This document shows, piece after piece, positions 1-32,094 of a DNA stretch of 35,308 nucleotides. The stretch is taken from the IMG/VR virus record IMGVR_UViG_3300030329_003950, positions 1 to 35,308 of that record, one strand, 5' to 3'. Within the stretch, counting starts at the first letter, position 1; each line of letters starts with the position of its first letter. Source of the DNA: a virus. The notes beneath the pieces are model-generated. The model worked only from the letters and a program-made list of their open reading frames with translations, searched no databases and was not told where the DNA came from. Made by a program: the position numbers and the translations under genes.

Positions 1-3000
1 TTTCCTTCACCAACTCTTTCTATTAACTCAGAAGCTTCAACATTTATTTTTAAACCAGCTCGTCGTTGTAACATCATGTCTGAATTCCAAATTTTAGCAA
101 AATCTTTCCAGTATTGAGGTTGATTAGCAAAAGCTTGAGCTGCTCTTAAAGGGTTATTAAATGTTCCGTTAACATAATTCAATGTTGATATAGTTTGTAA
201 TACAGCTGATTTTTGGTTAAAGAACATTATAGTACCAGTAGCATTATTCATCCAGTTCATCCATCTATTAACGTTAGAATCTTTACCAACCGTTCTATTA
301 GTACCTTTTTCCATTCTCCAAACCATATTTTCTAAAGCCTCTCTATGTTTTGGTCCTAAAATAGATTCTATTTTGTTCATATTTTCACCAACTAACCTTC
401 CCTTTTCCCACTTGCCAAATATAACCTCTCTATTTTCTATAAATTCAGATAAAGCTTCTTTTCTATATACACGATCTACAACGTTATTCATGTCCATAGT
501 TATATTCTCACCTAACCAAAAAGTTTCAGGTTTTAAATAACCTTCTTTTAAACCTGTTATTTTACTTAAATTTTCAGCGAATGCAACTAGTTGAGAATCT
601 TTACCAACGTAATCTACTAATGTTTTTAAATCCCTTTTAGATAGTCCAGGTACTTCATATCCAGCTTTATTCCATAAATACACTCTAATAGCTTGATCAA
701 CAGTGTAAATTCCATCAACCTTTTCATTTAACCTCTTTCTAACTTCAGGCATTTGTTTTCTTAATGTTTTATAATCATTAGAAATGTTTTGCTTTCTAGC
801 GTGAATATCGTTATAAGCTCTATTAAATGGCTTGTGAAGATTATCCTCAAAGAATTTTTTATGTGCTTCTCCTTTTTTACCTTTACCAGCAAAAGCGTAA
901 GTTACTAAACCAGCAAGATCTTCAGCTCCCCAACCTTTTACAAAAGGAACGTTCCATACTTTTCCACCTTCTATTTTACCTTTAGCCTCACTGTAAGTTT
1001 TCTTTGTTTCAACACCGTAAGATTCTTCAATTATCTTATTGAATTCTAAACTTAAATTTTTACTATTAAGAGATCTAACTATTTGTACGTCAGATTTAAT
1101 GTCTAACTGATTTAAAACATCTTTAACTGCCTTTACATTTGGTAAAGCATCGTCAACAAAATACATGTCATTGTATCCTTCTGCAAACTTTTCTAACATC
1201 CATAACGCCTTAGCCTCTCCAGTGCTATTACCTAAACCAGTTATATTTTCTAATGGTAATTTTACATCTTGTGTTTTTAACCACTCGTGAATTGCTTTAG
1301 CACTCTCTGGTGCTCTAGCTGTTAATATAAAAACATTTTCAGGACCAAACTTTTCTATTTGTTTTTTAAGCTTTTCCATTAACGGTCCTGGTTTACCTTT
1401 TGTAACTCTATTAAAATCAGTGAAATCCATCTTCCAACCTTCTTTAACCATTTTATCACCAACAAAAGGCCATTTATCTGAAGCTATCTTTTTTACTTCT
1501 TTACCTCTTCTAGCTATAACATAATTTTCACTAACACCAACAGTTTCATCGAAATCAAAAGTACTCATACCTCTCTTTTTCTTTTTTGATTTTCTACCTT
1601 CAGCCAAAGCTTTGTCTATGTTAGATAAGTGCTCTAGATTTTTTGAATTAAGTGATGAAGCACCTTTACGAAATCTTTCTGGAAATAGCTTTTTTATATT
1701 TTTTCCAACTTCTTTTCCTAATTGTTGCTTTTGTTTCATGGATAAGTTAGGGTGAAGATCATAAACCGTACCAGCCCTATGTCCAGCAAAAGCCCTTAAT
1801 CCAAAATTAAAATTAGACGAATGAGCAGCTTCGTAATAACGGGATTGAAGTGGATCCATTCCTGGTAAATGAGCTGATGGTAATTCTGATTGCAAAATTT
1901 TATTTACCATTTTATCGTATGTTCTCGGTATAAAGGTAGTATGATAATCTCTAAGAGTTAAATCCATAGCTTCTTTTATAGATTTTTCTCCACCAGAAAG
2001 TATATAATCATAAATTCTAGCTTTAACATTGTTAGCCGGTGTTGTATGTTCTAATACCCATTTAGCTGGATTGTTACCAAATTTACTCATTAATTCTTTT
2101 ACAGTGAGATTTGGTGCTACCGCTAAAGAGGCTGATTTCTTAATAAGTCCAAACATATTTCCAGAATGCATTTCAACCCATTGTCTAACTGTTCTATAAC
2201 TAATATCACCTTTTTCATAAGACTCTCTAACAAATTCTACAACATCTTTTAATAGGTCTTTATTTTTCTCTCCAAATTCATATTCAACCTTAGCCTTAGC
2301 CTCATTAAATTTTCCACCTTTAACAAAGTTAACTATTTCCATTAACTTTCTTTTATCACTTTGCCTATAAGATTCAGACGAAGTCATGTCTTTATATTTT
2401 TCTAATTTCTCAACTGTAGTATTTTTTTCTCTAGCAATTTCAGCATATACAGATTCTATCATATCATAAGAATCCATCTCAGATCTTTTATCTTTATTTA
2501 TATTCCTTGATCTCCAAATAGCATATCTTATCTTATGCATTATACCAGCATCCATATCTTTTATGCTTCTAAAAGCACCTATCCCTCCACCGCTAGACGT
2601 TCCATCTTGTAAAAATACTTCGTAAGCCCCAACTCCAAATTTTTCAGTTAAATATTTAGCTAAAGCTCTATCAAATACTTGTCCGTCAACTATGTCACCT
2701 CTATTATCAAAAACTTCTTGTAATTCTAAAATCTTCAATCCATGCTTACCCTCAACACCAGCTGTAGAGCTAGGAAGTTTTACGGCTTTTTCAGCTTTAG
2801 TAATAATAACCTCAGGCGTAACTCTAGCAGTAAATTTAAACTCTTTATAAAGTTGATTACTTATTTTCTTTAAATTTTCTTTACTAATAGTAAACTCTTT
2901 ATCTATATTTTTATATGATTCAAAATGGTTTACAATAGTTTTTTCTAATGCTTGTTTAAGATTATTTACACCCTTAACAGATTTAATAGTATAAGTACCG

Positions 3001-6000
3001 TCTTTTTCACGGGTCATATTATTTAAATAAGCCTTAAGAAACTCTTTAGATCTAATTTGCTCTAAAAACTTTCCTTTATTATAAGCTGTTTCAAGTTCTA
3101 AAACTTTAGAGAAAAATGAATTAGACTTACCACCCTTAAGATTAACTATCATATTAGCCGTTAAATCCATTGATTCAGTCATTGTTTGCTCTGAAATATG
3201 TCTTCCTTCTTCACTTATTATACGTCTTATTTTACCGCCTAAAGATCTATCTTCTTTTAAAGTTTTGTAAGATCCATCTTTTTTCTTTCCAACAAACTCT
3301 TTAACGTTTTCACCTGTTAATTTTTCACCTTTAGCTTTTCCTTTTATATATATTCTACCACCAGGTCCCGTTGCTGCTCTCCAATATCCTTCCGCATGTG
3401 GTTTTGGATTAACCTCAAATCCTAATTGTTTAAGTTCTGCTCTAGTATAATTTTTTGGAGTTGCTAAATGGTATAATTCTCCCAATGTACCTAATCTAGG
3501 GAAAGCGGATCTACCTACTAATAAATCACTAACACCTTTATCAAACTTAACTGTTCCTTGTGGAAGACCATCTGCTATTCTATCGGCGTTTTTAACTTTT
3601 CTAGTTGCAGGAACACCTTTTTCGTCAAGTTTTTGTCTCATTTCAACTTGACCTTTCTTATTAATGCTTTCTTCCATGATGTTACGGTAAAAGCTTCCAT
3701 CTATAAATTCTTGTGCTGACTTTCTATTTTTTTCTCCAGCTATATCATTAGGTCTCTTCCTTTGAGCATCGTTAAGTTTTACACCATACATTTCTTCTGT
3801 AAATTTAGGTGCATAATCTACTATATCCCTATAACCCATTTTTTCAATAACCTCAATTTTAGGGGTGTTTTTCAATATAGTTTCTTTCCAACCTCCTTTT
3901 TCTTCAAAAACTTTTTTATCTACAGGTATTTCGTTTTTAACTTTTCTTTGTCCTTCTACTTCAAAAACCTCTTTAAATTCACCTCTTTTATTCTTTACCC
4001 ATTCTTTTGTTAAATCTTCAGTTTCAAAAGTTTCTGTTCTAAAGTCTTTATCTGCTATTAATCTATCACCAATAGTTTTTCCTTTACCTGCTGGAGCATC
4101 TATAGGTTTTGCTATTGGATTTTTCTCGTACCACTTAAATATTTCACCTCTTCTGAATTGGTATTCAGAATTAACCCATCCTGATAAACTTTCGTTTTGT
4201 TCTAGTGTACCCCATTTTCCTTCGTTAAATCTTTCTATTATACCTTTAATGCCTTTGCTAACAAAAGTTGTTACATCTTCTCCAGTTACTTTATCTTTTC
4301 TTCCCTTACCCTCAACACCAAGCGAAACATCTTCTATCCAAGTCTCTCTTGATCTACCTTCTATAGGAAAAGAAACACCTCTTGTAATTAATTTTACAAA
4401 AGCTCCATCTTCTTTATATAGTTCTTCTAATGCTTTGTCTTTTCCACCACCTCTAGCGTTCCACTGTTTCTCGGTCATGAGTTTACCGTCTTTTCTAGCA
4501 AAATCATTTATAACTTTACCTTCTTTAGTTTCTCCTTTTACAACATCTGGTGGTATATTCTTAAGATTCTTTCTCATAATAGCGAGATCATCTTGAATCT
4601 TTTTAGTTTTTTCTTTATATTCTTCTATTGTAATTTCTTTATCTTTATATTGCTGTAAAGCTGGATGTAATTTTAATTCTTTTTCTTTATCAACAATTTT
4701 CTTTTTTAAATCTAATACTCTACTCGCTTGCGTACCGTCTGTTGACTTACCGTTTAAAGCTTCCCATTGTTCTCTTAATTGTCGCTGCTTTTTAGTTTGT
4801 CCTCTTGAAACAAATTGCTCTAAATGTTTCATTAATGGTTCTACAGATTTACCTTGTTTTATAGTTTCTGTATATTTTAAAAACCATAAAGCAACTTCTT
4901 TCTGTGTGTTAAACTCACCTTCAAGTCCAAATTTAATTCTTGATGAGTTACCTAAGAAGTCAGCAAGTTTATCAAAGCCATATGATTCTACAATAGCATC
5001 ATAATTACCTTTATTAGTTAAAAATTCTGATATATACCCAAATAATTCTTGTTCTTTCACACGAGCTGCATCCCACGTGCCTTTCCAAACACCAGCTTCT
5101 TCCATAGCTTGATAAAGTGATCTACCATCTGGGGTTTTTATAGTTTTTGCAACCTCTACCATTCCGTTAACCCATTCAGATTTAAACATAATATCTTTAC
5201 CAAACTTTTCGTAATGAAGTATATGTAATAATTCATGTGGCGCTAATCCTGGATTTAGTAACTTAGGATTATATGTGAGTTCATAAATAGTATTCTTAGT
5301 ATTATTTATTTTAGGAGTTCCATCTGAGTTTAAGTCGTATTTAAACTTTTCACCAGGTTCCACAGGATTAACATCTGCTCTTTCTTTTTGGTTTTCGTCA
5401 TATCTAACCCTAGTTCTATTCAACTGGTCATTAGTTAGTGTGTTTCTAAAATCATTATGAAACTTTAAAGCCCCTGCGATAGGGTCTAAATATTGTCTCG
5501 TATCTCTAATATTATGTAAACGCATGTCAACTAACTCTATTAAATCGTCTAGTTTTTCTACGTTTTCTATTGTTTTGTCCTTTTTTAATACAATTTCACC
5601 AAGTTCATTTCTATCATATTCATATCTTCTTCTAATATTAACTTCTTCTACTGGATCTTTCTTTACAACTTTACCTTTTGGCGTGTCTATAATATCTTCG
5701 GTAGTTGGATCTTTTTCTCTAGTTATTTTTTCTTCAACCCACTTACCTTCATACAACTCTGCTTTCTCATCTCTTTTATTATCTTTAAATTTCTGAAGTC
5801 TACCTTCTGACATAAAATCAAACTTAGTAAAATGACCCATTCTCATAGCAAAACCAGTAATTAACTCAGTAATAATATGTTTTGTTACTTCATCAGAATC
5901 TCCATAATGTTCTTCTAAAAAATTATTCCAAGTTTTATTACCCATAAAGTCTTCGGCTAAAGCGTTTGCAAAGCCACCCATAGTAGAACCAGCTAAGAAA

Positions 6001-8969
6001 TTAACAGGGGTTGCCACTGTATAATCATATATTCCCTTTCCTAATCCCGCTTTTGATCCACCAAGTTTTGTAAATGCTTTTGTCCAAGGTATAATACCAT
6101 TAAAAAAACCAAACCCAACCCCTGTTGCAAAAGTTCCAAACCCTTCTTCTTCATAAGGATCTCTTCCTAATCCCATTTGAGAAGTAAGACCACCGCCACC
6201 CATAGCTAAGTGCATCTTAATACCTTCTTGAAGCATTCCTAATATATGTGCTTTACCTCTATTTACTATGCTAGCAGATTTAATAGATCCTCCTACGTCA
6301 TCTAAATATTTAGCTATTGCCGCGGGTGAGTTGTGTTTTAATCCTTTGTATGTAAAAATTACTTCTTCCCAAGCTTTATCTTTTTTTACTGTTTTTGTTT
6401 TTGATACATTTTTTATTTTATTTACAAGCTTACTTTTAGTCATTGGTTTAAAACCTGGAACAGCATAACGCGATCTAGTTAAGTACGTTCTTAAAGTATT
6501 AAAATATTTAGTAACTTTCATCACTGATAAAGCTTTGTTGGCAATTGCAAAATCAAGCACTACTTTAGGTAAGCTACCTACTGCATCACCCGACATTTCC
6601 CATCCAGTTTGACTCACATGTGCTAATTCTTTATTAGTAAGTGATATATTATTATCTCTATAAACGTCCGCTACGGTTTGTCTATATTCAAAATCTTTAA
6701 TACCATGTTGAAAATCATAATGTTTACCATCAAAGCTTCTATTTAACTCTGCCCAAGCAGACGTTACAAAGTTTGATTTTTTAGTTGTTATAACAGATTC
6801 ATTTTGTCCATAAATTTGATCATAAGCCCTTTCTTGACTTTTTAGATTTATACCGTATTCCATTCGGGAGTTGTGATTTATATCACCCTCTCCACCTTTA
6901 GAAGACCCAAGGTATTGAAATATATATGGGTTAGCTCTAGCCTCTGCGTCAGTAGCCATTACATAATGTCTAAGTTCATAACCAGTGTGTGTAGACGCTT
7001 TTACTTTTTTTGTATAATACTTATATGGAAAACCTTTAGTTCCTTGAGCTCTCATTATACCTTCAGTAGCAATAATTCTAAACTCACGTTTTTCACCTTC
7101 CCATTCATCCATAAATTGATCATGTGCTAAGTGAGTTTCAACCCATCCAGCTTTTAATTCATCTCTAGTAAGTGTTGATTCTTCTAACTGTTTTACTTTT
7201 CTTTTAGTTTCTTCTTCTAAACTAATTTGTTCAGCGTTTTCTAAACCTTCACCTGGAGAGAAATCTACTACTTTCTCGTTCTCTATAGTTAGAGTTCTTT
7301 GCATAGTAGTAGGATCTATAACGTATTTTGTTTCGTCTAAATCTTGATTTTTTAACTCTCTAACTTCGTTTAATTTTTTATATAATTCTTCAATTTTATC
7401 ATCATCCCCCGCCACAACAGCTTCATCTAATTGTTTACCTAGTTCAGCTATTGTAAGTTTATAGCCACTAAGCGAAGACACATATTGATTATACACGTAA
7501 TCACCTAGTGTTTTTCCATCTGTTACTATTCCAGATTCCATTAATTGATTAGCTTCAGTTTTAGCGTATGTGTGTTTGTTTATCTTAAAAGCTTCATCTA
7601 CTAAGTCGGACACCCTATTCTCTATAAGTCTATCCTGTTGATCTGAAGTTAAGTCTTTAAACGTTCTATTGTCCTTAAAAAACCCACCAAGATTTAATTC
7701 TTTTCTTAACGCCTTTTTAACTTTCTTTATATCATTTTGACTAGTTAATGTGTTTATTAAATTTGGTCCTTTAGCTTCTTTTTTATGTATTTCGTATTTT
7801 TCTTTTTCCTTAGAAGACAAATTATTATATTCTTTTTCACTTATAATTTTTTTTCCTAATTCTTTGCCACTAGGAGTTGTTATTTGACCTTTTTTAGATA
7901 TATATTCTATTTTTTTATCTGAAGCTAAATCATCAAGAAGTTCTCTTCCTGTTTTAATATTTTCTAAACTACTAGGATCTCCAAGAAGATATTTATCTAA
8001 AATAGGATTTATTACTTCATTAATTTTATTAAGTTCTTTGTTATAAGCTTCTGTATGTGTGTAATTTCTAGGGTTAGATTCTATAAATCTAATGATTCTA
8101 GCAGCTGTTTCATTCCGACCATCCTCGTCCCCGTCGTAGTTAGCATAAAAAAGTTGTTTACTATCATTAGGTAACTTAACCTCTATAGCTTGATTAAACA
8201 TTTCTCTTGCTGTAAACTCGTAACCCTCTCCTAAGTCTAAATTAGTTAAAATTTCAGCAACATTATCATCACCTTCATGCCAAGGTCTATTAGTAAAAGC
8301 TTTATGTATATCTGTCTTTGTTGTTTCGCCAAGAGATTTACCGTCAAGACGTTGGTTTGTACGGTCTTCTATATACTCAACTAAATTTACATAATCATTT
8401 TTAAATTTTGCGTATTCACTACCACCACCAATTCCAAGAAAACCCGCTTGTTGACCTCCACCTGCTCCAACCCCTTCTAAATCGAAATATCTTCCACTAT
8501 CATTTCCAGGTAATATAACTTCTATTCTATTACCCATTCCTCTTTCTTTAAATTTTATTCCAGATAAATTACCATTTTTATCGTACTTATATTGATTTTC
8601 AAGTAATTTTCGCATGTTTTCTTCTCTAGAAAACCAACTATCGTCTGCTACGTCTAGATATTGCGCCTCTGTAATATGATTATATTTATTTTCAACTAAT
8701 CTAGGTTTATCCCAAGATATATCTTCTTTAAATTTCTTTTTAAAATCCTCAAGTTTATCCTTGTGAACAGTATACTGTTGGTCACCAACCCAAAGCTTTT
8801 CATGATCAGGCATATCAACCACCTCAGTATCATCTACTATTGATTCATCTGGAGTTATAGATGTATCGTCTGTAATGAGAACAGCATCTGGATGATCTGA
8901 TAAGAACTCTTCCCTACGCTTCTCACTTACAGTGTATGTTTGCCCGTTTGGTAACTTATATTTATACAT
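1..8969 (-). CDS. Giant polyvalent internal-virion protein with zincin and HAD domains (partial, C-terminus off window)
   Basis: An uninterrupted minus-strand frame runs from the ATG at 8967-8969 to the window edge: at least 2989 residues, no stop seen. The start lies 30 bp after the previous stop, behind an A/T leader. Visible parts: a Lys/Glu-rich N-terminal half; a Gly-rich hydrophobic stretch near residues 910-990 that could touch membrane; HELLHILHYEKFG at 1245-1257, a zinc-metallopeptidase HExxH signature; and a HAD-type phosphatase module with DFDET at 2472-2476, ILTAR near 2550 and VDD at 2605-2607. The last ~110 residues, with FFNQKSAVLQTIS, resemble a segment I associate with very large phage internal proteins. 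Being last of three candidate ejection genes (263, 886, >2989 aa), it is probably packaged in the head and injected, analogous to T7 gp16. It could instead be called a polyvalent protein. The open frame and motifs are seen; the virion role is inferred. Confidence 0.85.
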   Translation of the reverse strand, partial: MYKYKLPNGQTYTVSEKRREEFLSDHPDAVLITDDTSITPDESIVDDTEVVDMPDHEKLWVGDQQYTVHKDKLEDFKKKFKEDISWDKPRLVENKYNHITEAQYLDVADDSWFSREENMRKLLENQYKYDKNGNLSGIKFKERGMGNRIEVILPGNDSGRYFDLEGVGAGGGQQAGFLGIGGGSEYAKFKNDYVNLVEYIEDRTNQRLDGKSLGETTKTDIHKAFTNRPWHEGDDNVAEILTNLDLGEGYEFTAREMFNQAIEVKLPNDSKQLFYANYDGDEDGRNETAARIIRFIESNPRNYTHTEAYNKELNKINEVINPILDKYLLGDPSSLENIKTGRELLDDLASDKKIEYISKKGQITTPSGKELGKKIISEKEYNNLSSKEKEKYEIHKKEAKGPNLINTLTSQNDIKKVKKALRKELNLGGFFKDNRTFKDLTSDQQDRLIENRVSDLVDEAFKINKHTYAKTEANQLMESGIVTDGKTLGDYVYNQYVSSLSGYKLTIAELGKQLDEAVVAGDDDKIEELYKKLNEVRELKNQDLDETKYVIDPTTMQRTLTIENEKVVDFSPGEGLENAEQISLEEETKRKVKQLEESTLTRDELKAGWVETHLAHDQFMDEWEGEKREFRIIATEGIMRAQGTKGFPYKYYTKKVKASTHTGYELRHYVMATDAEARANPYIFQYLGSSKGGEGDINHNSRMEYGINLKSQERAYDQIYGQNESVITTKKSNFVTSAWAELNRSFDGKHYDFQHGIKDFEYRQTVADVYRDNNISLTNKELAHVSQTGWEMSGDAVGSLPKVVLDFAIANKALSVMKVTKYFNTLRTYLTRSRYAVPGFKPMTKSKLVNKIKNVSKTKTVKKDKAWEEVIFTYKGLKHNSPAAIAKYLDDVGGSIKSASIVNRGKAHILGMLQEGIKMHLAMGGGGLTSQMGLGRDPYEEEGFGTFATGVGFGFFNGIIPWTKAFTKLGGSKAGLGKGIYDYTVATPVNFLAGSTMGGFANALAEDFMGNKTWNNFLEEHYGDSDEVTKHIITELITGFAMRMGHFTKFDFMSEGRLQKFKDNKRDEKAELYEGKWVEEKITREKDPTTEDIIDTPKGKVVKKDPVEEVNIRRRYEYDRNELGEIVLKKDKTIENVEKLDDLIELVDMRLHNIRDTRQYLDPIAGALKFHNDFRNTLTNDQLNRTRVRYDENQKERADVNPVEPGEKFKYDLNSDGTPKINNTKNTIYELTYNPKLLNPGLAPHELLHILHYEKFGKDIMFKSEWVNGMVEVAKTIKTPDGRSLYQAMEEAGVWKGTWDAARVKEQELFGYISEFLTNKGNYDAIVESYGFDKLADFLGNSSRIKFGLEGEFNTQKEVALWFLKYTETIKQGKSVEPLMKHLEQFVSRGQTKKQRQLREQWEALNGKSTDGTQASRVLDLKKKIVDKEKELKLHPALQQYKDKEITIEEYKEKTKKIQDDLAIMRKNLKNIPPDVVKGETKEGKVINDFARKDGKLMTEKQWNARGGGKDKALEELYKEDGAFVKLITRGVSFPIEGRSRETWIEDVSLGVEGKGRKDKVTGEDVTTFVSKGIKGIIERFNEGKWGTLEQNESLSGWVNSEYQFRRGEIFKWYEKNPIAKPIDAPAGKGKTIGDRLIADKDFRTETFETEDLTKEWVKNKRGEFKEVFEVEGQRKVKNEIPVDKKVFEEKGGWKETILKNTPKIEVIEKMGYRDIVDYAPKFTEEMYGVKLNDAQRKRPNDIAGEKNRKSAQEFIDGSFYRNIMEESINKKGQVEMRQKLDEKGVPATRKVKNADRIADGLPQGTVKFDKGVSDLLVGRSAFPRLGTLGELYHLATPKNYTRAELKQLGFEVNPKPHAEGYWRAATGPGGRIYIKGKAKGEKLTGENVKEFVGKKKDGSYKTLKEDRSLGGKIRRIISEEGRHISEQTMTESMDLTANMIVNLKGGKSNSFFSKVLELETAYNKGKFLEQIRSKEFLKAYLNNMTREKDGTYTIKSVKGVNNLKQALEKTIVNHFESYKNIDKEFTISKENLKKISNQLYKEFKFTARVTPEVIITKAEKAVKLPSSTAGVEGKHGLKILELQEVFDNRGDIVDGQVFDRALAKYLTEKFGVGAYEVFLQDGTSSGGGIGAFRSIKDMDAGIMHKIRYAIWRSRNINKDKRSEMDSYDMIESVYAEIAREKNTTVEKLEKYKDMTSSESYRQSDKRKLMEIVNFVKGGKFNEAKAKVEYEFGEKNKDLLKDVVEFVRESYEKGDISYRTVRQWVEMHSGNMFGLIKKSASLAVAPNLTVKELMSKFGNNPAKWVLEHTTPANNVKARIYDYILSGGEKSIKEAMDLTLRDYHTTFIPRTYDKMVNKILQSELPSAHLPGMDPLQSRYYEAAHSSNFNFGLRAFAGHRAGTVYDLHPNLSMKQKQQLGKEVGKNIKKLFPERFRKGASSLNSKNLEHLSNIDKALAEGRKSKKKKRGMSTFDFDETVGVSENYVIARRGKEVKKIASDKWPFVGDKMVKEGWKMDFTDFNRVTKGKPGPLMEKLKKQIEKFGPENVFILTARAPESAKAIHEWLKTQDVKLPLENITGLGNSTGEAKALWMLEKFAEGYNDMYFVDDALPNVKAVKDVLNQLDIKSDVQIVRSLNSKNLSLEFNKIIEESYGVETKKTYSEAKGKIEGGKVWNVPFVKGWGAEDLAGLVTYAFAGKGKKGEAHKKFFEDNLHKPFNRAYNDIHARKQNISNDYKTLRKQMPEVRKRLNEKVDGIYTVDQAIRVYLWNKAGYEVPGLSKRDLKTLVDYVGKDSQLVAFAENLSKITGLKEGYLKPETFWLGENITMDMNNVVDRVYRKEALSEFIENREVIFGKWEKGRLVGENMNKIESILGPKHREALENMVWRMEKGTNRTVGKDSNVNRWMNWMNNATGTIMFFNQKSAVLQTISTLNYVNGTFNNPLRAAQAFANQPQYWKDFAKIWNSDMMLQRRAGLKINVEASELIERVGEG

Positions 8970-8999: not shown

Positions 9000-11660
9000 T
9001 TAGGAATAATCCAAATTTGAACCATCTATCTTACTAATCTTTTGTTTGTCCTGCCAATCCATTTTTCCATATTCCTTTATTAGCCAGTTAATTAATCTAG
9101 TTTCATCTTCTTTACGACCTATCCACTTTTGGCCAATAAAATCTTTACCACCTTTTTCGTAAGCTCTATCAGTCATAAATGTGTACCAAACACCCGGATT
9201 GTTAGTTAAGTGTACTTTAATCTTATCCGTACGACCAAACCAATCTTCATCATGTACAGCGAAAGTAAATCCTAGATCACCATATCTTTCATTTAATTCC
9301 TTCACAACAAAATCTTCATCGTCAGAATCGAGTAAGTATTCTTTCACGTTATGCCTAGCTGCGGTTGAATATCTATCTGTTGGTTTTCTAATAGACTCAA
9401 AATTATCAAACAAAGTTTTAGTATTTGGATTTTTTTCTTTATATATCTGAGCATTAGTTTTGGTAGTATATTCTACTCCCGGTTTAATATCAACGTTTTT
9501 ATAAGCTGTATTTATATTTTTTATTAAAGCATTATACATTTCTCTCTCAACGTTTGTATCAGCATCTGCATTTATTTGAGACTCAAACCATTTTTTCTTT
9601 TTAGAATCGTAAAAATATAATACACCGTCTTTTATTTTATAATCAGTATCCATTGCTTTTTTATAACCAGATAACGTTGTTAAGTCTTTAGAACTTAAAC
9701 CTATTTCTCCAGTTTTAAGTTTAAGATTATGTTTTGGTGTTTTATTTCCGTAAGAAGTTGTATATTTATTTTCATCATTTAAACTATAAATAGAACTAGA
9801 GTTTGTTAGATTTAATTTACTTTTATCTTTACTATCTCTATCTTTTGGTGTTTTAGGTGGTTTATATGCTGATCCTATATCCCTCATTTCTTGTAAGTAA
9901 AAATCTTTAAAATGTTGTGATAAAGTTGATTGCTTACCGTTTAAAGTGTACATTCCAAGCATACCATCTCCCTTTTTTAAGTTTAGCATTTCATTCATTC
10001 TTTGTTCATCGGTCATTCCATTCCAAATATCTTTACCAAATTTCTCTGATAATATATCGTTTAAAAAAGTATTAACGTCTAATGCCTCCTCATCTTTACC
10101 AACTCTATTTATTCCATCAAAAAGTAAAGAAGCTTGCCCATCAATGTCTAATGCATCAAAAGAATCCTCAACCGCAACCATAGTCATGTTAAATAAATTT
10201 CTTTGATTTACATCTCCATTAGGATCAGCTCCAGCTGCTCTTGCTGTAACAACTTTATCTATTATATTTAAATGTCCTCTAAAAGCAACTCCATCTTTCA
10301 TTCTAGGTCCATCTCCAATAGTAGATAAATCTATATCATTATATGTATCAACAGGTTTAGAAGCATATTCATCTGTTTTTAAATAACTTTCTGTAGATTC
10401 TTTAACCAACTTATCTCTATCTTCTAAATAACGTCTTTCAGCATCTTGAGAATTAGGTCCAAAAATACCGTCAGCAGCATCACTTCCATCTGCGTTCTTT
10501 TTATCTAAATAACCTAAATTAATTAAAAACCTCTGTTTACTTTTGATTACAGCACTTTTACTATCTTCTTCCTTTGAAACTCTTCTCCACATCTTATACT
10601 CTCCTTGTTCACTTGGAGATAAAGCATCATATTCTGCTTGAGTTATAATATTGTTAGGATCATAACCATCCGCAGATGACCAAACAGTTCCCCCCTCGTG
10701 TTTACCTCCAGCTTGCCAAACAAATCCTCTTTCAACCTGTTCATCTTTAATTTCGCCTTCTCCAGCTAAATGTAATTCACTTAAATTTTCGTATCTACCA
10801 CTACCGTCACCTTCAAAGTGTTCACTTAAATCTTGTATTACGTTAGTTGTTTTACCTAACTCAGTAGAAGACATCATGTCGACTATAGCATTATCTCCTA
10901 ATGCTGCTTCTGGATCAATCCACATTAATTTACCATCGACTATTCTTATATTTTCCCCATTGCTATTATAAATATCCATCCACATTCTTCTCTCGTTCTC
11001 AGGTATAGACGCACTCCAATCTTTTTCATTATTATTACCTAACTTTATCTCACTACCATCCTCGTTTGTACCTATATCATTTCTTATAGCTAGTAACTTT
11101 TGATTGATTTTATCAAACTCTAAAATAAGATCTTGATCTTTTTCTACCTTTTTTCTAAGTTCATCATATCTAGGGTCATTAATATTTAAACGGGATAATT
11201 CTCTTAAATCAGCTTTTATAGACGTGCTAATGTTTTTAATTTCATCAACAACTGGCATGGCGGTTTTATTTGGACCTTGTTCTCCAAATATTTTAGAATC
11301 ATCAAACTCTGGCATTTGCTGTTTAAGTAATTGATATTTTGCGTCAGCGGCAGCTACTCTTTCGTTATATAAATTTATTGCAGGCATGAAAAAAGACTCA
11401 ACATCTGTTTGCATACGTAAAACATCTGCCTCTCCTTTTTGACGATAATAAGCTGCTTGCTTACTAAGAGGATCTGTACTAGTAGGTGTTTCTATTTTAG
11501 ATATATAATCTTGTACAGCGCTTTGATCTATTTCTTTAGGTTTCTTAACTGTTGTAAAAGGATCAGTTTCAAAGATGGTATCTCTAAATAAATCACTTTG
11601 CATAAGGTTTTCGTCTAAACCTTCTTCTAAATTTTCTTCTTTTTCTTCGTTTTCTGCCAT
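9000..11660 (-). CDS. Candidate ejection / internal virion protein with peptidoglycan-binding-like segment (886 aa)
   Basis: A long, acidic, hydrophilic protein without signal peptide or membrane helix. The first ~60 residues are Glu/Asp-rich, and residues ~85-195 look alpha-helical and coiled-coil-prone. Residues about 374-412 (KQRFLINLGYL, then DGIFGPNSQDAERRY) match the pattern of a PG_binding_1 repeat (LQ..L..LGY....DGIFGPNT..AV..FQ), with Ser for the usual Thr and an Asp/Ala-rich insert. The remainder, including the Lys-rich 600-720 region, is not recognised. It lies 10 bp after the 263-aa gene and 30 bp before the giant gene. This position, middle of three genes of rising size after the tail proteins, parallels T7 gp15. 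The ejection role is inferred from order and composition; the PG-binding call rests on a short motif. Confidence 0.7.
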   Translation of the reverse strand: MAENEEKEENLEEGLDENLMQSDLFRDTIFETDPFTTVKKPKEIDQSAVQDYISKIETPTSTDPLSKQAAYYRQKGEADVLRMQTDVESFFMPAINLYNERVAAADAKYQLLKQQMPEFDDSKIFGEQGPNKTAMPVVDEIKNISTSIKADLRELSRLNINDPRYDELRKKVEKDQDLILEFDKINQKLLAIRNDIGTNEDGSEIKLGNNNEKDWSASIPENERRMWMDIYNSNGENIRIVDGKLMWIDPEAALGDNAIVDMMSSTELGKTTNVIQDLSEHFEGDGSGRYENLSELHLAGEGEIKDEQVERGFVWQAGGKHEGGTVWSSADGYDPNNIITQAEYDALSPSEQGEYKMWRRVSKEEDSKSAVIKSKQRFLINLGYLDKKNADGSDAADGIFGPNSQDAERRYLEDRDKLVKESTESYLKTDEYASKPVDTYNDIDLSTIGDGPRMKDGVAFRGHLNIIDKVVTARAAGADPNGDVNQRNLFNMTMVAVEDSFDALDIDGQASLLFDGINRVGKDEEALDVNTFLNDILSEKFGKDIWNGMTDEQRMNEMLNLKKGDGMLGMYTLNGKQSTLSQHFKDFYLQEMRDIGSAYKPPKTPKDRDSKDKSKLNLTNSSSIYSLNDENKYTTSYGNKTPKHNLKLKTGEIGLSSKDLTTLSGYKKAMDTDYKIKDGVLYFYDSKKKKWFESQINADADTNVEREMYNALIKNINTAYKNVDIKPGVEYTTKTNAQIYKEKNPNTKTLFDNFESIRKPTDRYSTAARHNVKEYLLDSDDEDFVVKELNERYGDLGFTFAVHDEDWFGRTDKIKVHLTNNPGVWYTFMTDRAYEKGGKDFIGQKWIGRKEDETRLINWLIKEYGKMDWQDKQKISKIDGSNLDYS

Positions 11661-11670
11661 AATTTATATT

Positions 11671-12462
11671 TTATTTATTTGGATCCCAAATTCCACGTTG
11701 TTGAGCCCAATTTCCAATATTAGATCTAAGTTTAAACATGTCATCATCAAAGTGACCATATCCCATGCCACCTGGCATATAATGGCCACCTACAGCCCCA
11801 ACCGCTTGTCCTAATCCACTCCAAGCATCTGATCTAGCTGTTGATCTAGCTTTATCAGCTGCTGATAATCTATCTAAACCTAATCCGTACATTTTTTCCA
11901 TTCTCGCTTGTTCTTTTTCTACGACATATTTTTGTTGAGCTTGTCTTTTAGCTACATCAACATCAAACGCTCCTTTTCTTCTTTGTTGTTCACCCTTTAA
12001 CGCTAACATTTGATTTTGTCTCACTTGCTGTGATATTGAAGCTGCCCCTTGTTGCGCTTGTCTAGCCCCTACATTAGCCATTGATTGTGCAAGTCCAGCT
12101 ATACCAGAAGCGCCAGCGGCACCTCTTAATCCCTGCATTATATTAGCTTGTTGTTGTTGTTGTTGTTGTCTTAAATAATCCGCACTTTGAGTGTCTACAG
12201 TTAAATCTTCATACAAGTTTTCAGCATAGGGATTTTGTATTCCCTCTAATGGATTTGTAAACTTCATGTCCATATAAGCTTTTTTTGCTTCCGCCATTTC
12301 CGCTCTAGCCGCTCTTTGTTCACGTATTCTCTTTTTTCTACCAATTAAACTTCCAGCAGCTTTTATAATACCTGGGGCAGCTAAAGCGGCTATTTGCCAC
12401 CATTTATGAGGTGAAGATTTTTTATAAAAAGGAGATTTATATCCCACTGGTTTCTTTGCCAT
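11671..12462 (-). CDS. Candidate small ejection / internal virion protein, poly-Gln (263 aa)
   Basis: The protein starts with a Lys-rich stretch followed by a hydrophobic or amphipathic segment (WWQIAALAAPGIIKAAGSLIG, residues ~21-41). Then come a charged helix rich in Arg/Ala/Glu, a run of seven Gln near residue 100, a Gly/Ala-rich section (GLRGAAGASGIAGLAQSMA), a second Gln/Arg-rich helical region, and a Gly/Tyr-rich C-terminus. This composition (one hydrophobic segment, Ala/Gln-rich helices, no enzyme motif) is usual for T7 gp14-like ejection proteins, and the gene precedes two larger candidates of the same class. The leader is A/T only (AAATATAATAATATG), with no Shine-Dalgarno. The function is inferred from composition and order; no domain was recognised outright. 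Confidence 0.6.
   Translation of the reverse strand: MAKKPVGYKSPFYKKSSPHKWWQIAALAAPGIIKAAGSLIGRKKRIREQRAARAEMAEAKKAYMDMKFTNPLEGIQNPYAENLYEDLTVDTQSADYLRQQQQQQQANIMQGLRGAAGASGIAGLAQSMANVGARQAQQGAASISQQVRQNQMLALKGEQQRRKGAFDVDVAKRQAQQKYVVEKEQARMEKMYGLGLDRLSAADKARSTARSDAWSGLGQAVGAVGGHYMPGGMGYGHFDDDMFKLRSNIGNWAQQRGIWDPNK
12148..12168 (-). repeat. (CAA)7 trinucleotide repeat encoding poly-Gln
   Basis: Seven perfect TTG units on the plus strand, read as CAA on the coding strand, lie inside the 263-aa gene. They encode seven consecutive Gln. The tract could change copy number by slippage without shifting the frame. Confidence 0.9.
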
Positions 12463-14900: not shown

Positions 14901-17900
14901 TTATACGTTGTATATTATTGTATCTGCTGTCCCTATACCTTGAAAATTAAACGCGCTTGTATCTAAAGGCGCATTATTATCTCCTTTTATGTAATTAAAC
15001 CATTTTCCTTCTTTTTCTATAAACCCTGTAACAGTTCCACTTTGTTGATCTGTAAATATACTACTACATACCCAATCTTCGTCACCATCATAATTTAATG
15101 TGTTAAAATTCTTAACAACAGAAGGAGATTCGTTAAATATAAATGTTATAGAAGAATCAGTTATACTATCACCATAAAAAATATTCCTGTTATTATTATC
15201 ATGGTGTTTCCAACACTTACCCTCGTAAAAAGTATAATAATCACCTCCCATACTAACTCCTGATTCCTGTATAAATGATTTAAAACTAACCCATCCTTTT
15301 ACATCTTCGCTATAAGTTACAGTTTGTGAATCAGTAACCCCATATGTTTTACTACCTCTATCAAATGTTAAATTATAATCGCTTTTACGCGTGTCATAAC
15401 TACCTATAATATTAAAGTGATCTCTCTTAAACTCATCTTTAAACCAATCAGACATCCCAGCATTAGATATAGGTGTTAAACCATCCATTGACAATCTAAG
15501 TATAGCCCCTCTTTGTTTGTCTGTAAAATAAGCTCTATAACTATCTTTAGCAAATGATTCTGGATTTTTAGATATACCATAATCTCCTACAAAAGGATTA
15601 GCGTCTCCTAACACAGCATTTGTTGACACTAATTGTGGATTTCCATCTGCATTATATAAAGCGTTTTTATTAGCTGTTACCCCAACAATTCTATCTTCAC
15701 AAAAAGCAATTAAACTTACTCTTCTTGAAAATAATTTTTGAATGCTACCGTAAGTAGGATTTAAATCTTTAGTAATTTTTTCAGCCATTATAAACTGATT
15801 TAAATCATTAATTCCAGATGTTGAATTATATAAACCTGAATATATTAAACCATTTTCTCTATGTTCCTCTTCATAAGGCCTATCTAATGTTGAACTTGCT
15901 CTTACACCGTTAGATATAGTCATAGAATTAAAATCGTCTCTAATTCTATCTGACTCAACACCGTTTCCAAACATAAAGCAATTATACCAATTAAGACCAA
16001 CTTCTATATCGTTATCATTTGAAGCTGTTGGTGTAGAACTAACCATTTTAAATTTAGTTTTATATACTCCAGCAGTTTCAGATGGTGGTGTAGAATCTAA
16101 TAACGTCGTAATATAACTACCATCATCATTAAAAAATCTTATTTTAGCATTACTATAATCAACTGGAGTTGATCCGTCGTCTTCGTAATAATTAAAACCA
16201 GGAGATAACGTAAACTCCGTTGCTTCAGCAGAATCATAACTGGTTAAAAATACATTTTCTAATATATTAATATCGCCTTGTCTTGCGCTTGGTAAGTCTA
16301 AAATTTCAACTCTATTACCTACTTGAGCAAAAAGTTCCCTTGTTTTTTTAGTTATATTAATAGGATATGCTTGACTAGCTTCATAATAAATGTCTAAATC
16401 AACATTGTCTTTAGGTTCTGTTTCCCATATGGCTGGTACTTGAGATACTTTACCAGCACTTAACTGCGCGTCTGGTTCTATAAATTCTATAGCATCATAT
16501 GTTACAGAATTTATATTTACTCCATCAATAATAGGAAAATCAGAACTCAAGCTAGGATCTTCATCTAGTTCTAATATATAAACAAGTCTTCTATTGTTAG
16601 TTTCTCCAAAAGATTTTATTCTATTTTTTAATCTATCATGCCACATTTCATCTTCATGACCAGTACTGTCCCAGTTTGGAGCCTGACCTGTCGCGTCACA
16701 TCTACTTGAATATCCTAAAGCGGCAAATTCAACAGCTTTACCACTAGGTCTAAGATTATTATTGCTAGTAGGATCAGAGTTATATGAAAATTTCCAATCA
16801 GTATGATTATATACTTTTTTAGTTTTTACACTTTTTATTTTGTATAATGTACCTGATGGATCCCCGTTAAATCTAAACTTCCTACCAGCTTTTAACTTAT
16901 TTATAAAATCGGCTATTTTATTACCAGGGTCAGTTGGATAAGTTGGATCCCATTGTTTTTCATGCGCTTCTTGATACGCGGGATCATAACCGCTAATTGG
17001 AATACTACAATTATTACCATTTTGATCAACACTACTAAAATGTTGATGAGTTGTCCCAGAGCCATCCACCTTTTCCATAAGTATAGCGGTGGGATTAGTA
17101 CCAGCACTATTATAAGGGCTACTTGGTCCACCACCAACTTTATATTCCGGGGACAGGTAATGAGCATATCCATATAGACTTTGATATAATGAGGTAAATA
17201 CTCCCCCACCATATATACCTTGTAATTCCGCATGAAGATTATTAATATTTATAGGTTCGGTAAGATTACCATCGTGTAAATCTACACCTGGACCTAAAAA
17301 GGAAATATGTAAAAAATGTTTACCAATAGCCCCACCATAAACATCATCTAAATTATTATCAAAATTACTAGTTCTCCATCTTCTTAATCCGTTTTGACCA
17401 ACGTGCATATCAGTAGTTGTAGTCATACCATCTAAACCATTTATCCTATTTGTGTTTGGTAAGGAAGCGCCGGAATTATTATGGTTAGCCCAAATCAAAA
17501 GATTATCTTCTTTTTCCCAACTCATAGCCGCTAAAGTAGTTGGATCTTGCCAATATGATCCAGCTGTGTCTCTATTAGATGGAACTTGTGATACGTCACA
17601 ATGAAAATCTATATCGCTTATAACATTAGGTTCTCCACCATAAAAACCCATATGAGTACTTTCTCTAGCATATTGGCCGTGTTGAACTCCAGAAACATAC
17701 ATATTATCTATAAAGAATCTAGTACTACCATTAGTATCCATATAACTTTCTAAGTTCTTCCAAGCACTATGAGTCCAAGTAACATTTAACCCCTGTTCAA
17801 GAACTCCAGTAGTAGAATTAGTTGCTCCATGCGCGTCGAATGTTTGAAAACCATCAGACGGATACGTCCCATTATAAACTTGATTAAATAAACCACCGTT

Positions 17901-20900
17901 TTGTGTATCTGTTTCGTAATCTTTATTATCAGTTGTGTTATTTACATCTGTATGCCAATAAATATTTTGAGATGCATCAACTACATAATTTATTAGTTCA
18001 CCCGCTGTTTCTGTAACTGTTAATTCACTTTTAATTAGACTACTAGCTAGTATTTTAACAAAAAATCTTCCAGAAAAAGATTCCATATCCTTCAGTATTT
18101 TTTTCTCAAATTTGACTGTTGTTTTATCATGAAAAGTTGTTCCCGAGGAAAAACACATCGCATCATCTACGTCAGTTATCGCCCTGTCTAATGATATCTT
18201 ATAATTAGGACTTGAACCGGTAGGATCAAGAAGTTCAACTTGTGTTATTTTGTATTTTTCTGAATATTGTACATCATTAGCGCTGTTTGTTTTGAAGAAA
18301 GAATAGTATAGTCCTGAAAAAGTTTCTGATTGGTGATCTACTACTTCACCATCGATAAGTTTATTGCCACCAACAGTATTACTCCAAGTGTCTATTCTCA
18401 TTTTAAAAGTATTATCCTTGGTGTTATTTTTGGATGGCATCCAAGCATTATCTTTAAATAAATTTGTGTTTAAATTAGTAGCGACATCGTCTTTACTAGC
18501 TTCTCCCATGTGAACAAACTTATATTTAATAGCATCAGGAGCTTCGTTTTTAACATCTAAAACTCTAAACTTATTATCTTCTGAAATTTGATTATCTGAA
18601 TCTATCCTTCTTTTTAATATTATATAATCATCTTTAGATATTTTATTTCTTTCAGACGATGGAAATGATAACCACACGTGATCTTCTTTTTTCAATTCAT
18701 CTATAGTTGGAGTATAAAGCGTATCCATAACTAAATTGTAATATTCACCAGAAGTTTCTTTAACATAAAACTTATAATATTCAGCCCAACCATCCCCTGG
18801 ATGATTTGATTTAATACTAGTTTTTAATTGAAGCGGATAACTAGCTAATGGATTTACTAAATTTACATCATCGAAAGGTATTACTAAAGAAGAATTTGAA
18901 GATGTAAACACTGGAGTTTCTCTTCCATATTTATCTCCATATACTATACCTAACTGATAGTTTCTTTGGGATTTTACAGATGGTAAACCTCCTTCTCTTA
19001 TATAAATATTATTATCTTCTGGTGTAGAAACTTGTGTTACAACCACATTGTCTATACTACCTTGAAAATTATCACTTTGTATCCAAAAGTAACCATTCCA
19101 ACTCTCATTGTTACCACTATTATTAGTTGTAGTAAGAGTTTTTTGAAAACTTACATGATTAACCGAACCTGAACCTGTTGACCAACCAGTATTATCAACA
19201 GTGTGTTTTAAAAAAGCGCCTTTAGGTAATATACCCGAGTAACCATTATGAATTCTTACCCTAACAGTTCCTTGATCATAATCTTTTACATCAAAAGAAA
19301 TTTCATAAGTTGTTCCCTCTGGTCCCCAACCACCAGAATTATCATAAATCATTTTATAAAGCGATATAACAGGATAACCAAATGAACCATAGGTCACCCA
19401 ACCGTTTGTTTGATCCCACCAAACTTCTGGATCAGCAGTTTCATTGGGATCACCATATTGAAGCGTCCATGGAGATGAAGAATTATCAAAATCATAATTA
19501 CTTATCAAGTTCCCATAAAGTTCAGGTTGAAATGTGGTTTCGTGAACGTTTCTTACTGTGTAATTAGATGATAGTTTAGGAAAAAAATTATCTGTATAAT
19601 TTTGTGTATAATTACCATATATTAATCTATTACCACTTATTTCTTGAGCTTTAGCATTTTTAGGGACGTTATCCCAATGTCTTAATAATTGATTTTCAGG
19701 TAGTGCAGCGTATATATTTTCACTTTTAACAGTAAAACTACCTTTATAACTAGAACTAGGTGAATAACCAAGAGATTGCCAAGATGTATTAGAGCTATCG
19801 TTTGCTCTAAGAACTTCCATAACATAAATAACAGGAGAATCTTCTTGTTTGTATAAAAGATCTATTTGTACAACATCTTCTGGCATATCTGGAGATACAA
19901 AATCAAATAATTCTATTGAATCTATCATATTTATCATACCCACGTTATACGGTTCTTTATCAGTATAAGCACTTTTAGCGTCATGGGTTTCTCCTTCTTG
20001 ATCTAAAGGATATTTAGAATTAAAGACTACTTTGGTAAATGGAGCATAAGTAGAGTATTCTCCATCAGCATATCTATATCTATAAGAAAATCTTGGGAAT
20101 ATTTTTTTGAATAGAGGATTTTTGTTTGAAGGATCTGCCGAGTTTATTTTATAATTTAATGGTTTTTTAGGGTTTTTACGTATAACAGTTATATGTTCCT
20201 CTGAAACGTCTACGTGCCCATGAAATACCGCTATACTACCTGTATCCCATGTACCACTAGAAAAAATAGTATCACTTAATGTAACTGTGTTGCCTGTGAT
20301 ATCTGTAACATAAATTAGATTTGGCGTAGCTGGATCATTTATAAAGTCCCAAATTCCTCCACCAGTTACCGTTAAAGTCATTAATTGATCTCCAACTTTT
20401 AAATCTCCAACACTATTAAAGGTTATTGTATCGCTATTACTACCACCACTAGTTGTTGTTAACTCTTCTGGGTTTTTAAACACTCTCTCTCCTCCAACAA
20501 CTAATTGAGTATGTATTCCAAGACTACTTGAAGTTGGACCAAAATTAGAGCCCTGCTTACTTCTTTCTATATTTATTTTTTTAGGTTCACCTTTTCCATC
20601 TGTCCAGAATAAAAGATCACCTATAATATTAATACCAGTTATAATACTACCAACTTCAAAACCAAGAACACTATTATCTGTTGTTGTATCAACAAAAACT
20701 GGAGTAATATCACCATTTTCAGCATATTCTAATATCGCGCATCTACCACCATCTCTAGTGATAAAGTAATATAACGTATTCTTTTTTTCGTCTGCTATAG
20801 AACCCACACACTCCCAGCCACCACCAACAACTTCCGTATCACCTGATACTGAGTTTTCATTAAATAAAGTATTACCAAGTATATTTTGCACAGCCCCAAT

Positions 20901-21026
20901 ATCTGAGTCGTCAGAAGTAGATACTTGTACGTTTAAAGCATCTCTATATTGTCCATTTGGAATTATTCTCTCGTCAAGGTCTTTATTCATTTTACCTTGA
21001 GTAAAAGTATTTTTAATCTCTGGCAT
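14901..21026 (-). CDS. Stabilisation / tail tubular protein (T7 gp12- or crAss-like), 2041 aa with inserted domains
   Basis: The N-terminus (NKDLDERIIPNGQYRDALN, residues 14-32, then DIGAVQNILGN) is the hallmark of phage stabilisation/tail-tube proteins. I know it from crAss-like phages, and it is functionally comparable to T7 gp12. The conserved core reappears through the protein (FSYRYRYADGEYSTYAPFT near 310; a late region around ISKNPESFAKDSYRAYFTDKQRGAILRLSMDG). Inserted into it are a small beta module (~190-255); a lectin-like jelly roll (~507-668) that starts NYDFDNSSSPW and ends SIDNVVVTQV; and a large unrecognised central region (~980-1400) rich in Trp, His and Gly. It is three to four times the size of simple gp12 homologues, so most of its length is insertion. 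It is translated 3 bp after the preceding connector gene. Likely role: closing the neck and forming the tail nozzle while presenting receptor-binding domains. Confidence 0.75.
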   Translation of the reverse strand: MPEIKNTFTQGKMNKDLDERIIPNGQYRDALNVQVSTSDDSDIGAVQNILGNTLFNENSVSGDTEVVGGGWECVGSIADEKKNTLYYFITRDGGRCAILEYAENGDITPVFVDTTTDNSVLGFEVGSIITGINIIGDLLFWTDGKGEPKKINIERSKQGSNFGPTSSSLGIHTQLVVGGERVFKNPEELTTTSGGSNSDTITFNSVGDLKVGDQLMTLTVTGGGIWDFINDPATPNLIYVTDITGNTVTLSDTIFSSGTWDTGSIAVFHGHVDVSEEHITVIRKNPKKPLNYKINSADPSNKNPLFKKIFPRFSYRYRYADGEYSTYAPFTKVVFNSKYPLDQEGETHDAKSAYTDKEPYNVGMINMIDSIELFDFVSPDMPEDVVQIDLLYKQEDSPVIYVMEVLRANDSSNTSWQSLGYSPSSSYKGSFTVKSENIYAALPENQLLRHWDNVPKNAKAQEISGNRLIYGNYTQNYTDNFFPKLSSNYTVRNVHETTFQPELYGNLISNYDFDNSSSPWTLQYGDPNETADPEVWWDQTNGWVTYGSFGYPVISLYKMIYDNSGGWGPEGTTYEISFDVKDYDQGTVRVRIHNGYSGILPKGAFLKHTVDNTGWSTGSGSVNHVSFQKTLTTTNNSGNNESWNGYFWIQSDNFQGSIDNVVVTQVSTPEDNNIYIREGGLPSVKSQRNYQLGIVYGDKYGRETPVFTSSNSSLVIPFDDVNLVNPLASYPLQLKTSIKSNHPGDGWAEYYKFYVKETSGEYYNLVMDTLYTPTIDELKKEDHVWLSFPSSERNKISKDDYIILKRRIDSDNQISEDNKFRVLDVKNEAPDAIKYKFVHMGEASKDDVATNLNTNLFKDNAWMPSKNNTKDNTFKMRIDTWSNTVGGNKLIDGEVVDHQSETFSGLYYSFFKTNSANDVQYSEKYKITQVELLDPTGSSPNYKISLDRAITDVDDAMCFSSGTTFHDKTTVKFEKKILKDMESFSGRFFVKILASSLIKSELTVTETAGELINYVVDASQNIYWHTDVNNTTDNKDYETDTQNGGLFNQVYNGTYPSDGFQTFDAHGATNSTTGVLEQGLNVTWTHSAWKNLESYMDTNGSTRFFIDNMYVSGVQHGQYARESTHMGFYGGEPNVISDIDFHCDVSQVPSNRDTAGSYWQDPTTLAAMSWEKEDNLLIWANHNNSGASLPNTNRINGLDGMTTTTDMHVGQNGLRRWRTSNFDNNLDDVYGGAIGKHFLHISFLGPGVDLHDGNLTEPININNLHAELQGIYGGGVFTSLYQSLYGYAHYLSPEYKVGGGPSSPYNSAGTNPTAILMEKVDGSGTTHQHFSSVDQNGNNCSIPISGYDPAYQEAHEKQWDPTYPTDPGNKIADFINKLKAGRKFRFNGDPSGTLYKIKSVKTKKVYNHTDWKFSYNSDPTSNNNLRPSGKAVEFAALGYSSRCDATGQAPNWDSTGHEDEMWHDRLKNRIKSFGETNNRRLVYILELDEDPSLSSDFPIIDGVNINSVTYDAIEFIEPDAQLSAGKVSQVPAIWETEPKDNVDLDIYYEASQAYPINITKKTRELFAQVGNRVEILDLPSARQGDINILENVFLTSYDSAEATEFTLSPGFNYYEDDGSTPVDYSNAKIRFFNDDGSYITTLLDSTPPSETAGVYKTKFKMVSSTPTASNDNDIEVGLNWYNCFMFGNGVESDRIRDDFNSMTISNGVRASSTLDRPYEEEHRENGLIYSGLYNSTSGINDLNQFIMAEKITKDLNPTYGSIQKLFSRRVSLIAFCEDRIVGVTANKNALYNADGNPQLVSTNAVLGDANPFVGDYGISKNPESFAKDSYRAYFTDKQRGAILRLSMDGLTPISNAGMSDWFKDEFKRDHFNIIGSYDTRKSDYNLTFDRGSKTYGVTDSQTVTYSEDVKGWVSFKSFIQESGVSMGGDYYTFYEGKCWKHHDNNNRNIFYGDSITDSSITFIFNESPSVVKNFNTLNYDGDEDWVCSSIFTDQQSGTVTGFIEKEGKWFNYIKGDNNAPLDTSAFNFQGIGTADTIIYNV

Positions 21027-31819: not shown

Positions 31820-32094
31820 TATTTTGATCTTCCTTCTGCAAATCCTTTAAAGACTCTTTCTTTTTTTTCTTCAGGTTCTTTACCCTCGATAATATTCTCT
31901 TCTTCTTGGATTCTATTGAGTATTTCAAAAGCGTCAAAAATGGCCAGTTTTTTGGTGGCAGCAGCGTTTTTAAGTCTGTCAGCTGTAATATCGTCTCCAC
32001 TATCGACAATAGCTTCTTTTGCAACTTTAATAAGTTCATCAACAGCTTTGTGCCCAGCTTGGATTATACGCTTCTTCGTTTCCTTGATATTCAT
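31819..32094 (-). CDS. Putative terminase small subunit (91 aa)
   Basis: A short, helical, highly charged protein directly upstream of and translationally coupled to TerL (TAATG junction at 31817-31821). The N-terminal helices (KKRIIQAGHKAVDELIKVAK), the DDITADRLKNAAATKKLAIF stretch, and an acidic then basic C-terminus (EEKKERVFKGFAEGRSK) suit a small DNA-recognition/oligomerisation subunit. No helix-turn-helix was identified with certainty. There is only one ATG in the frame; using it gives a 56-bp overlap with the upstream GroES-like gene, unusually long here. The call rests mainly on position, size and composition. Confidence 0.6.
   Translation of the reverse strand: MNIKETKKRIIQAGHKAVDELIKVAKEAIVDSGDDITADRLKNAAATKKLAIFDAFEILNRIQEEENIIEGKEPEEKKERVFKGFAEGRSK

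Follow-up and report, generated by a model that had tools for sequence, protein, structure and literature searches.

T4 polynucleotide kinase/phosphatase (Pnkp) removes 3'-phosphates and phosphorylates 5'-hydroxyls, after which ligases can seal the ends; the known enzymes of phage RNA repair, T4 PseT and RnlA among them, are small and stand-alone, and are produced inside the infected cell. In jumbo phages, PNK-HAD and "Swiss-army-knife" haloacid dehalogenase (HAD) phosphatases are usually fused to RNA-repair genes or accompany them (PMC7824862). Large polyvalent proteins form a class defined by Iyer (2017), in which the zincin peptidase is the commonest domain and is thought to process the proteins that carry it; haloacid dehalogenase/phosphatase domains go unmentioned in the main text of that survey (PMC5512222). 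Giant proteins that lie in a structural gene cluster and contain HExxH include those of the Flavobacterium elemo phages (3694 aa), of MW202828 (3859 aa), and of Tenacibaculum phage Gundel_1 (gp074, 2482 aa; Pachyviridae). These three have little or no BLAST-level similarity to the protein described here, and no HAD was found in any of them; the zincin region of the elemo protein matches the profile of our family (32 bits), as does the distal C-terminal region of Gundel_1 gp074, which is annotated as a structural protein (35.6 bits).

The stretch of DNA analyzed here (the window; 35,308 nt) is the entire IMG/VR record IMGVR_UViG_3300030329_003950 (Table 1). An earlier note on this DNA described a single frame of at least 2989 codons that is still open at the window edge, and re-reading of the minus strand from 8969 to 3 recovered it: one open frame, 2,989 codons long, that begins with ATG and reaches the contig edge without a stop. 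The same note proposed recovering the 3' end from the assembly; because the window is already the whole record, there is no further sequence from which this could be done. Complete relatives run 832–996 residues beyond HAD motif I, compared with 517 in the window protein, so that the latter probably lacks its last ~320–430 residues. One full-length relative (L002, 3355 aa) shares 36% identity with the window protein across residues 709–2989. BLASTP with composition adjustment missed this strong C-terminal similarity, which without adjustment extends over 2392 columns (1211 bits); single-sequence BLAST negatives for the giant protein are therefore weak.

Table 1. Position of the giant gene, its parts, and neighboring virion genes in the window (residue numbers refer to the giant protein).
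Feature	Residues	Position	Strand	Remarks
Giant ORF		3..8969	minus	≥2989 aa; 3' end cut off by contig edge
Start of constant C-terminal region	2661-2989	3..989	minus	Rest lost at contig edge
HAD phosphatase domain (predicted)	2464-2660	990..1580	minus	Conservation, model, Pnkp fold match, DUF2608, phrog_415
HAD motif I, DFDET	2472-2476	1542..1556	minus	P-loop kinase inserted after this site in relatives
HAD motif II, LTAR	2549-2552	1314..1325	minus	T2550 and R2552 invariant
HAD motif III, K2587	2587	1209..1211	minus	Invariant
HAD motif IV, D2606-D2607	2606-2607	1149..1154	minus	Invariant
Zincin (gluzincin-type metallopeptidase) region	1095-1420	4710..5687	minus	As aligned and modeled
HELLH	1245-1249	5223..5237	minus	Motif and conservation
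E1308, predicted third zinc ligand	1308	5046..5048	minus	Invariant in zincin alignment
886-aa protein		9000..11660	minus	Directly upstream of giant gene; possible companion ejection protein, by position; few sequence relatives
263-aa protein		11671..12462	minus	Near giant gene in 71 loci; possible small ejection/internal virion protein
Tail protein (2041 aa); C-terminal domain of crassvirus muzzle type		14901..21026	minus	crAss_MUZ_C 34 bits; phrog_14478
Probable major capsid protein		24370..25917	minus	phrog_13704 virion structural protein; MCP named from position
Portal protein		27177..29600	minus	phrog_6547
Terminase large subunit		29603..31819	minus	

Within this frame, the earlier note had read a complete set of HAD motifs (DFDET at 2472, T2550, and VDD at 2606) and a HELLH zincin motif at 1245–1249. 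Both are there, with the valine of VDD at residue 2605. Such motifs are weak by themselves, a strict HAD motif I arising in 2.6% and HExxH in 5.8% of shuffled copies of the giant protein; it is because the catalytic residues are conserved across relatives that the motifs are not attributed to chance. D2472, D2474, T2550 (within ILTAR), K2587, D2606, and D2607 (within VDDA) are the same in every one of the 79 relatives, which thus all carry motifs I (DxDxT), II (S/T), III (K), and IV (DD), although the presence of a HAD among these 79 is by selection, as they were found through it. K2587, which had not been named previously, completes the set as motif III. Agreement with the window protein in the same relatives is 50–73% over the HAD and at most 20% over the N-terminal two thirds, and dN/dS values of ~0.01–0.2 in the HAD and C-terminal region (ten pairs) denote strong purifying selection. 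A chance motif, a frameshift chimera, or a pseudogene was ruled out by this conservation together with dN/dS. Judged by conservation, the HAD motifs are a real, if predicted, phosphatase active site.

For the zincin, the only invariant columns in an alignment of 73 diverse sequences (14% mean column identity) are H1245, E1246, H1249, and E1308, that is, exactly the HExxH residues and the downstream glutamate expected of a gluzincin (ligands and base), with E1308 lying 59 residues past HELLH; as sequences were admitted to the alignment for having HExxH, what it adds independently is the distal glutamate alone. The HExxH residues are nevertheless kept in 74–77 of the 79 giant frames, a set not selected for HExxH. 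The fold check gave a mixed outcome. The AlphaFold model of the region (pLDDT 73) has zincins as its top three VIA matches (6mdw, Z 5.5; 6mdx, Z 5.4; 3e11, Z 5.0), but these are weak and span only 72–95 residues, and Foldseek of the model against PDB gave no significant match. These matches, to SPRTN (the best, Z 5.5) and another zincin, are weak alone but agree with the ligand pattern. On conservation, HELLH is likewise taken as a real, predicted metallopeptidase active site. A second HExxH (HEMVH) occurs in a 143-aa protein (34404–34835, minus strand) that adjoins a holin gene and is possibly a small lysis-region metallopeptidase.

That a giant phage protein combines a zincin with a HAD is borne out by conservation, by the fold models, and by where the gene lies, and the earlier label of a large polyvalent protein fits the class of Iyer (2017; PMC5512222), both in the zincin and in the location of a giant multidomain polypeptide among late virion genes, here after the portal, capsid, and tail genes. 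Two distinct domains, with conserved and modeled catalytic sites, are present. Among LPD domain models, none matches the window protein, and LPD14 matches 2 of 15 relatives (best 9.7e-6). A multidomain, polyvalent late protein with a zincin is of an already known kind. The HAD/kinase slot described below is a variant of it: compared with the proteins of the survey, the HAD of this family, with or without an inserted kinase, sits in a fixed position, and its C-terminal neighbor is constant across the clade. The protein is laid out as variable N-terminal two thirds with an intact gluzincin site, a phosphotransfer slot, and a constant helical C-terminal region.

Four states of the slot occur in relatives: a HAD by itself, a HAD interrupted after motif I by a P-loop kinase, a kinase by itself, and neither. 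The C-terminal region is common to HAD, kinase, and empty-slot relatives; it is mainly helical, and its model is largely of high confidence. Two records have terminases 78% identical to that of the window; in both, a P-loop domain of ~200 residues inserted directly after HAD motif I divides the HAD match within one frame, and this nested form is matched essentially end to end by 17 IMG/VR loci. The in-frame nesting can be read in L254 (5601–6728, minus strand), L255, and L256, and in L259–L275. The inserted P-loop domains score 43–44 bits against AAA_33 (Pfam cut-off 27) and 33–38 bits against Zeta_toxin. One relative (L258) has a kinase without HAD (AAA_33, 50 bits) and another (L257) has neither, the same C-terminal region being present in both. 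A scan that started from the C-terminal region instead of the HAD yielded 78 classifiable loci, comprising 47 with HAD, 6 with HAD and P-loop, 9 with P-loop, and 16 with neither; these are not population frequencies, since the P-loop was called by motif and the ranking favored empty-slot relatives, one of which headed the query. The new finding is that the HAD occupies an exchangeable slot ahead of a constant C-terminal region. In the open-access literature searched, no paper came up that reports a kinase embedded in a HAD within such a protein. The zincin-bearing N-terminal part seems to behave as a cassette of its own, exchanged independently of the HAD and C-terminal region: between L078 and L081, identity is 91% in the HAD and 96% in the adjacent C-terminal region, compared with 31% in the zincin, and L024 and L025 have zincins ~30% identical and a HAD and C-terminal region within 80–96%.

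The slot also bears on whether the HAD might be a structural or regulatory virion element, or a phosphoprotein phosphatase, such that what is conserved is catalysis in assembly rather than delivery. The marked difference in conservation between HAD and N-terminal part would be unusual for a patchy counter-defense domain, and SCP1-type protein phosphatases do appear lower in the Foldseek list for the HAD model. The slot is, however, empty or kinase-only in close relatives, so that assembly as such can do without the HAD, and every HAD catalytic residue is invariant; we regard an assembly role as improbable.

As to the substrate, the AlphaFold model of residues 2290–2989 (pLDDT 80–94 over the HAD core) matches HADs through most of its list of structural matches over model residues 175–340, and thereby shows a Rossmannoid HAD fold. 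The best match is the T4 polynucleotide 3'-phosphatase (Z 11.8 over 122 residues, 2.5 Å), and three T4 Pnkp entries rank first (Z 11.8, 10.7, and 10.3), with all others at 10.0 and below. In a viral structure library, the close full matches are uncharacterized proteins of uncultured viruses; named matches further down are PseT of Vibrio phage phi-pp2, a Swiss-army-knife RNA-repair HAD, and a Streptomyces phage polynucleotide kinase. Searches of Pfam, PHROGs, and NCBIfam with the window giant protein alone gave nothing credible, and a profile search of PDB with the HAD and zincin alignments found no true relative by sequence. Among 58 HAD relatives, 57 match Pfam DUF2608 and 44 match phrog_415 "polynucleotide kinase" (best 1.1e-7), the window's own copy being unmatched. 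The earlier note had offered nucleotides, nucleic-acid ends, or phosphoproteins as substrates; the fold and PHROG matches to polynucleotide kinase/phosphatase and the kinase in relatives favor nucleic-acid ends. That the HAD fold is common to many substrate classes is a point against assigning polynucleotide ends. Foldseek alone places nucleotide-bound class C acid phosphatases first among HADs (prob 0.97, E 0.11) and also lists the deoxyribonucleotidase-like 3bwv, as might be expected if a delivered polyvalent protein used its HAD to act on a nucleotide-based second messenger or on nucleotides themselves, either blocking host defense signaling or feeding nucleotide metabolism. We consider this unlikely, given that structural comparison and PHROGs both place polynucleotide phosphatases first and that the HAD is paired with a Pnk/zeta-type kinase.

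The kinase itself allows a further reading, in which a zeta-toxin-like kinase, with the HAD as its counterpart, modifies, at entry, a sugar phosphate such as a precursor of the cell wall. Slot kinases exceed the Pfam Zeta_toxin cut-off (33–42 bits vs. 22.3), and one UniProt relative is named UDP-N-acetylglucosamine kinase, UniProt relatives in general being uncharacterized or named by kinase similarity. AAA_33 outscores Zeta_toxin in all three kinase domains tested, though, and the HAD fold is nearest to T4 Pnkp, which leaves a sugar-phosphate substrate distinctly improbable. The kinase also has weak matches to PNK-3'Pase and bacterial Pnkp models, and its profile scores 19.7 bits against the kinase half of T4 PseT (best of 2,000 shuffles, 7.3), a score that marks membership of the broad Pnk/zeta class and is not proof of a Pnk.

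Healing of nucleic-acid ends, the reading we prefer, draws on a likeness to T4 Pnkp that is partial in detail. By motif spacing, T4 D165, D167, S211, R213, K258, D277, and D278 have counterparts in the window HAD; R176 and D254, which we take to be essential phosphatase residues of T4 Pnkp, have none, and the cap between motifs I and II is longer in our family. The HAD profile search did not find T4 PseT by sequence, and hhalign of the HAD alignment against the T4 phosphatase aligned motif I alone. A kinase domain, as in Pnkp, is absent from the window protein. In relatives it is an insert or the sole occupant of the slot, and is of the same broad class as the T4 kinase, but where both are present it is nested inside the HAD, whereas in T4 Pnkp it lies N-terminal to it; and the window HAD is part of a giant late protein, whereas T4 Pnkp is a small separate enzyme. 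Among 23 HAD phages, whose records are incomplete, an RNA ligase was detectable in only 3 and a separate AAA_33 kinase in none.

The giant gene closes a virion cluster, with portal, probable capsid, tail, and crassvirus-muzzle-like genes upstream on the same strand. Apparent shared lectin- or carbohydrate-binding-like segments (N-x-x-F...W) were seen by eye in products of this cluster (12504–13643, 14901–21026, and 21030–22586, all minus strand), and a GroES-like co-chaperonin (phrog_13932; 32039–32629, minus strand) is encoded upstream of the terminase. The succession of small, mid-size, and giant proteins that ends the cluster resembles T7 gp14, gp15, and gp16, an analogy of position only. 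Most complete relatives have a hydrophobic segment 600–700 residues past the HAD, which in the window protein lies within the missing part. From this gene order, the hydrophobic segment, and the distant likeness to flavophage "structural proteins," we infer virion packaging and injection, as we infer the substrate and any part in counter-defense. It might be objected that these flavophage labels are annotations, and that the giant protein is a late product working inside the cell and never packaged. Against this, it is the last tail-cluster gene in the window and in the closest named relatives, it adjoins a conserved small virion-type protein, and its distal C-terminal region is shared with the annotated Gundel_1 structural protein, so that an unpackaged protein seems highly improbable.

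The window terminase is 64% identical to that of MW202828 (Manatee Spring) and ~46% identical to those of Flavobacterium elemo phages. In 27 of 27 HAD-carrying records tested, the terminase is 72–90% and the portal 60–80% identical to those of the window (one short piece of the split terminase in G003 is 70% identical), which indicates one coherent uncultured clade, of marine podovirus-like phages. The portal has one in-frame TAA in G002 (L012) and is split in G010 (L066), and the terminase is split in G003 (L014); these are possibly assembly errors. The HAD is carried by at least 591 IMG/VR loci. Searches of 50,697 deposited phage records with the full-length protein and the HAD segment found no close relative; the HAD of L008 had one doubtful match there, to a 462-kb uncultured phage (26.7%, E 2e-3). 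A prophage or cellular origin was rejected, as relatives turned up in only 2 of 84,980 genomes, both of them MAGs, one on a phage-sized 63-kb contig and the other on a 6.6-kb contig. One HAD-carrying record (L090; JAAXIF010000025.1, G027) lies in a Sphingobacteriales MAG, two contigs of which carry the terminase and portal of this phage. Because of this record, and because named relatives infect Flavobacteriia, the host is likely a member of Bacteroidota.

Taken together, we favor, with confidence falling somewhat short of even, a polyvalent-type protein that probably forms part of the particle and leaves it together with the DNA, and whose HAD heals nucleic-acid ends in the manner of T4 Pnkp. 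The giant protein, last in the virion cluster, would be packed in the particle and then ejected with the genome, the C-terminal region serving as the delivery part; once inside, the zincin would release the individual domains, or it would cut a host protein. Like the phosphatase half of T4 Pnkp, the HAD would take 3'-phosphates off DNA or RNA ends, such that breaks from entry or from host defense nucleases could then be sealed. In relatives, the Pnk/zeta-type P-loop kinase would supply the 5'-kinase half, and its presence within or in place of the HAD suggests a delivered nucleic-acid repair enzyme. The wider proposal that this widespread clade as a whole ejects such an end-healing enzyme, with the kinase nested in the 3'-phosphatase in some members, and that breaks in the incoming genome, or in host tRNA cleaved by defense nucleases, are repaired before phage gene expression, is more tentative and on balance doubtful.

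If the favored reading is right, phosphatase/kinase end-healing would join the activities that are brought in with phage DNA and act before transcription. The four states of the slot (phosphatase, phosphatase with nested kinase, kinase, and empty) in phages with closely related terminases amount to a natural experiment on the role of a delivered enzyme, and a large uncultured marine clade gains a marker protein and a testable function.
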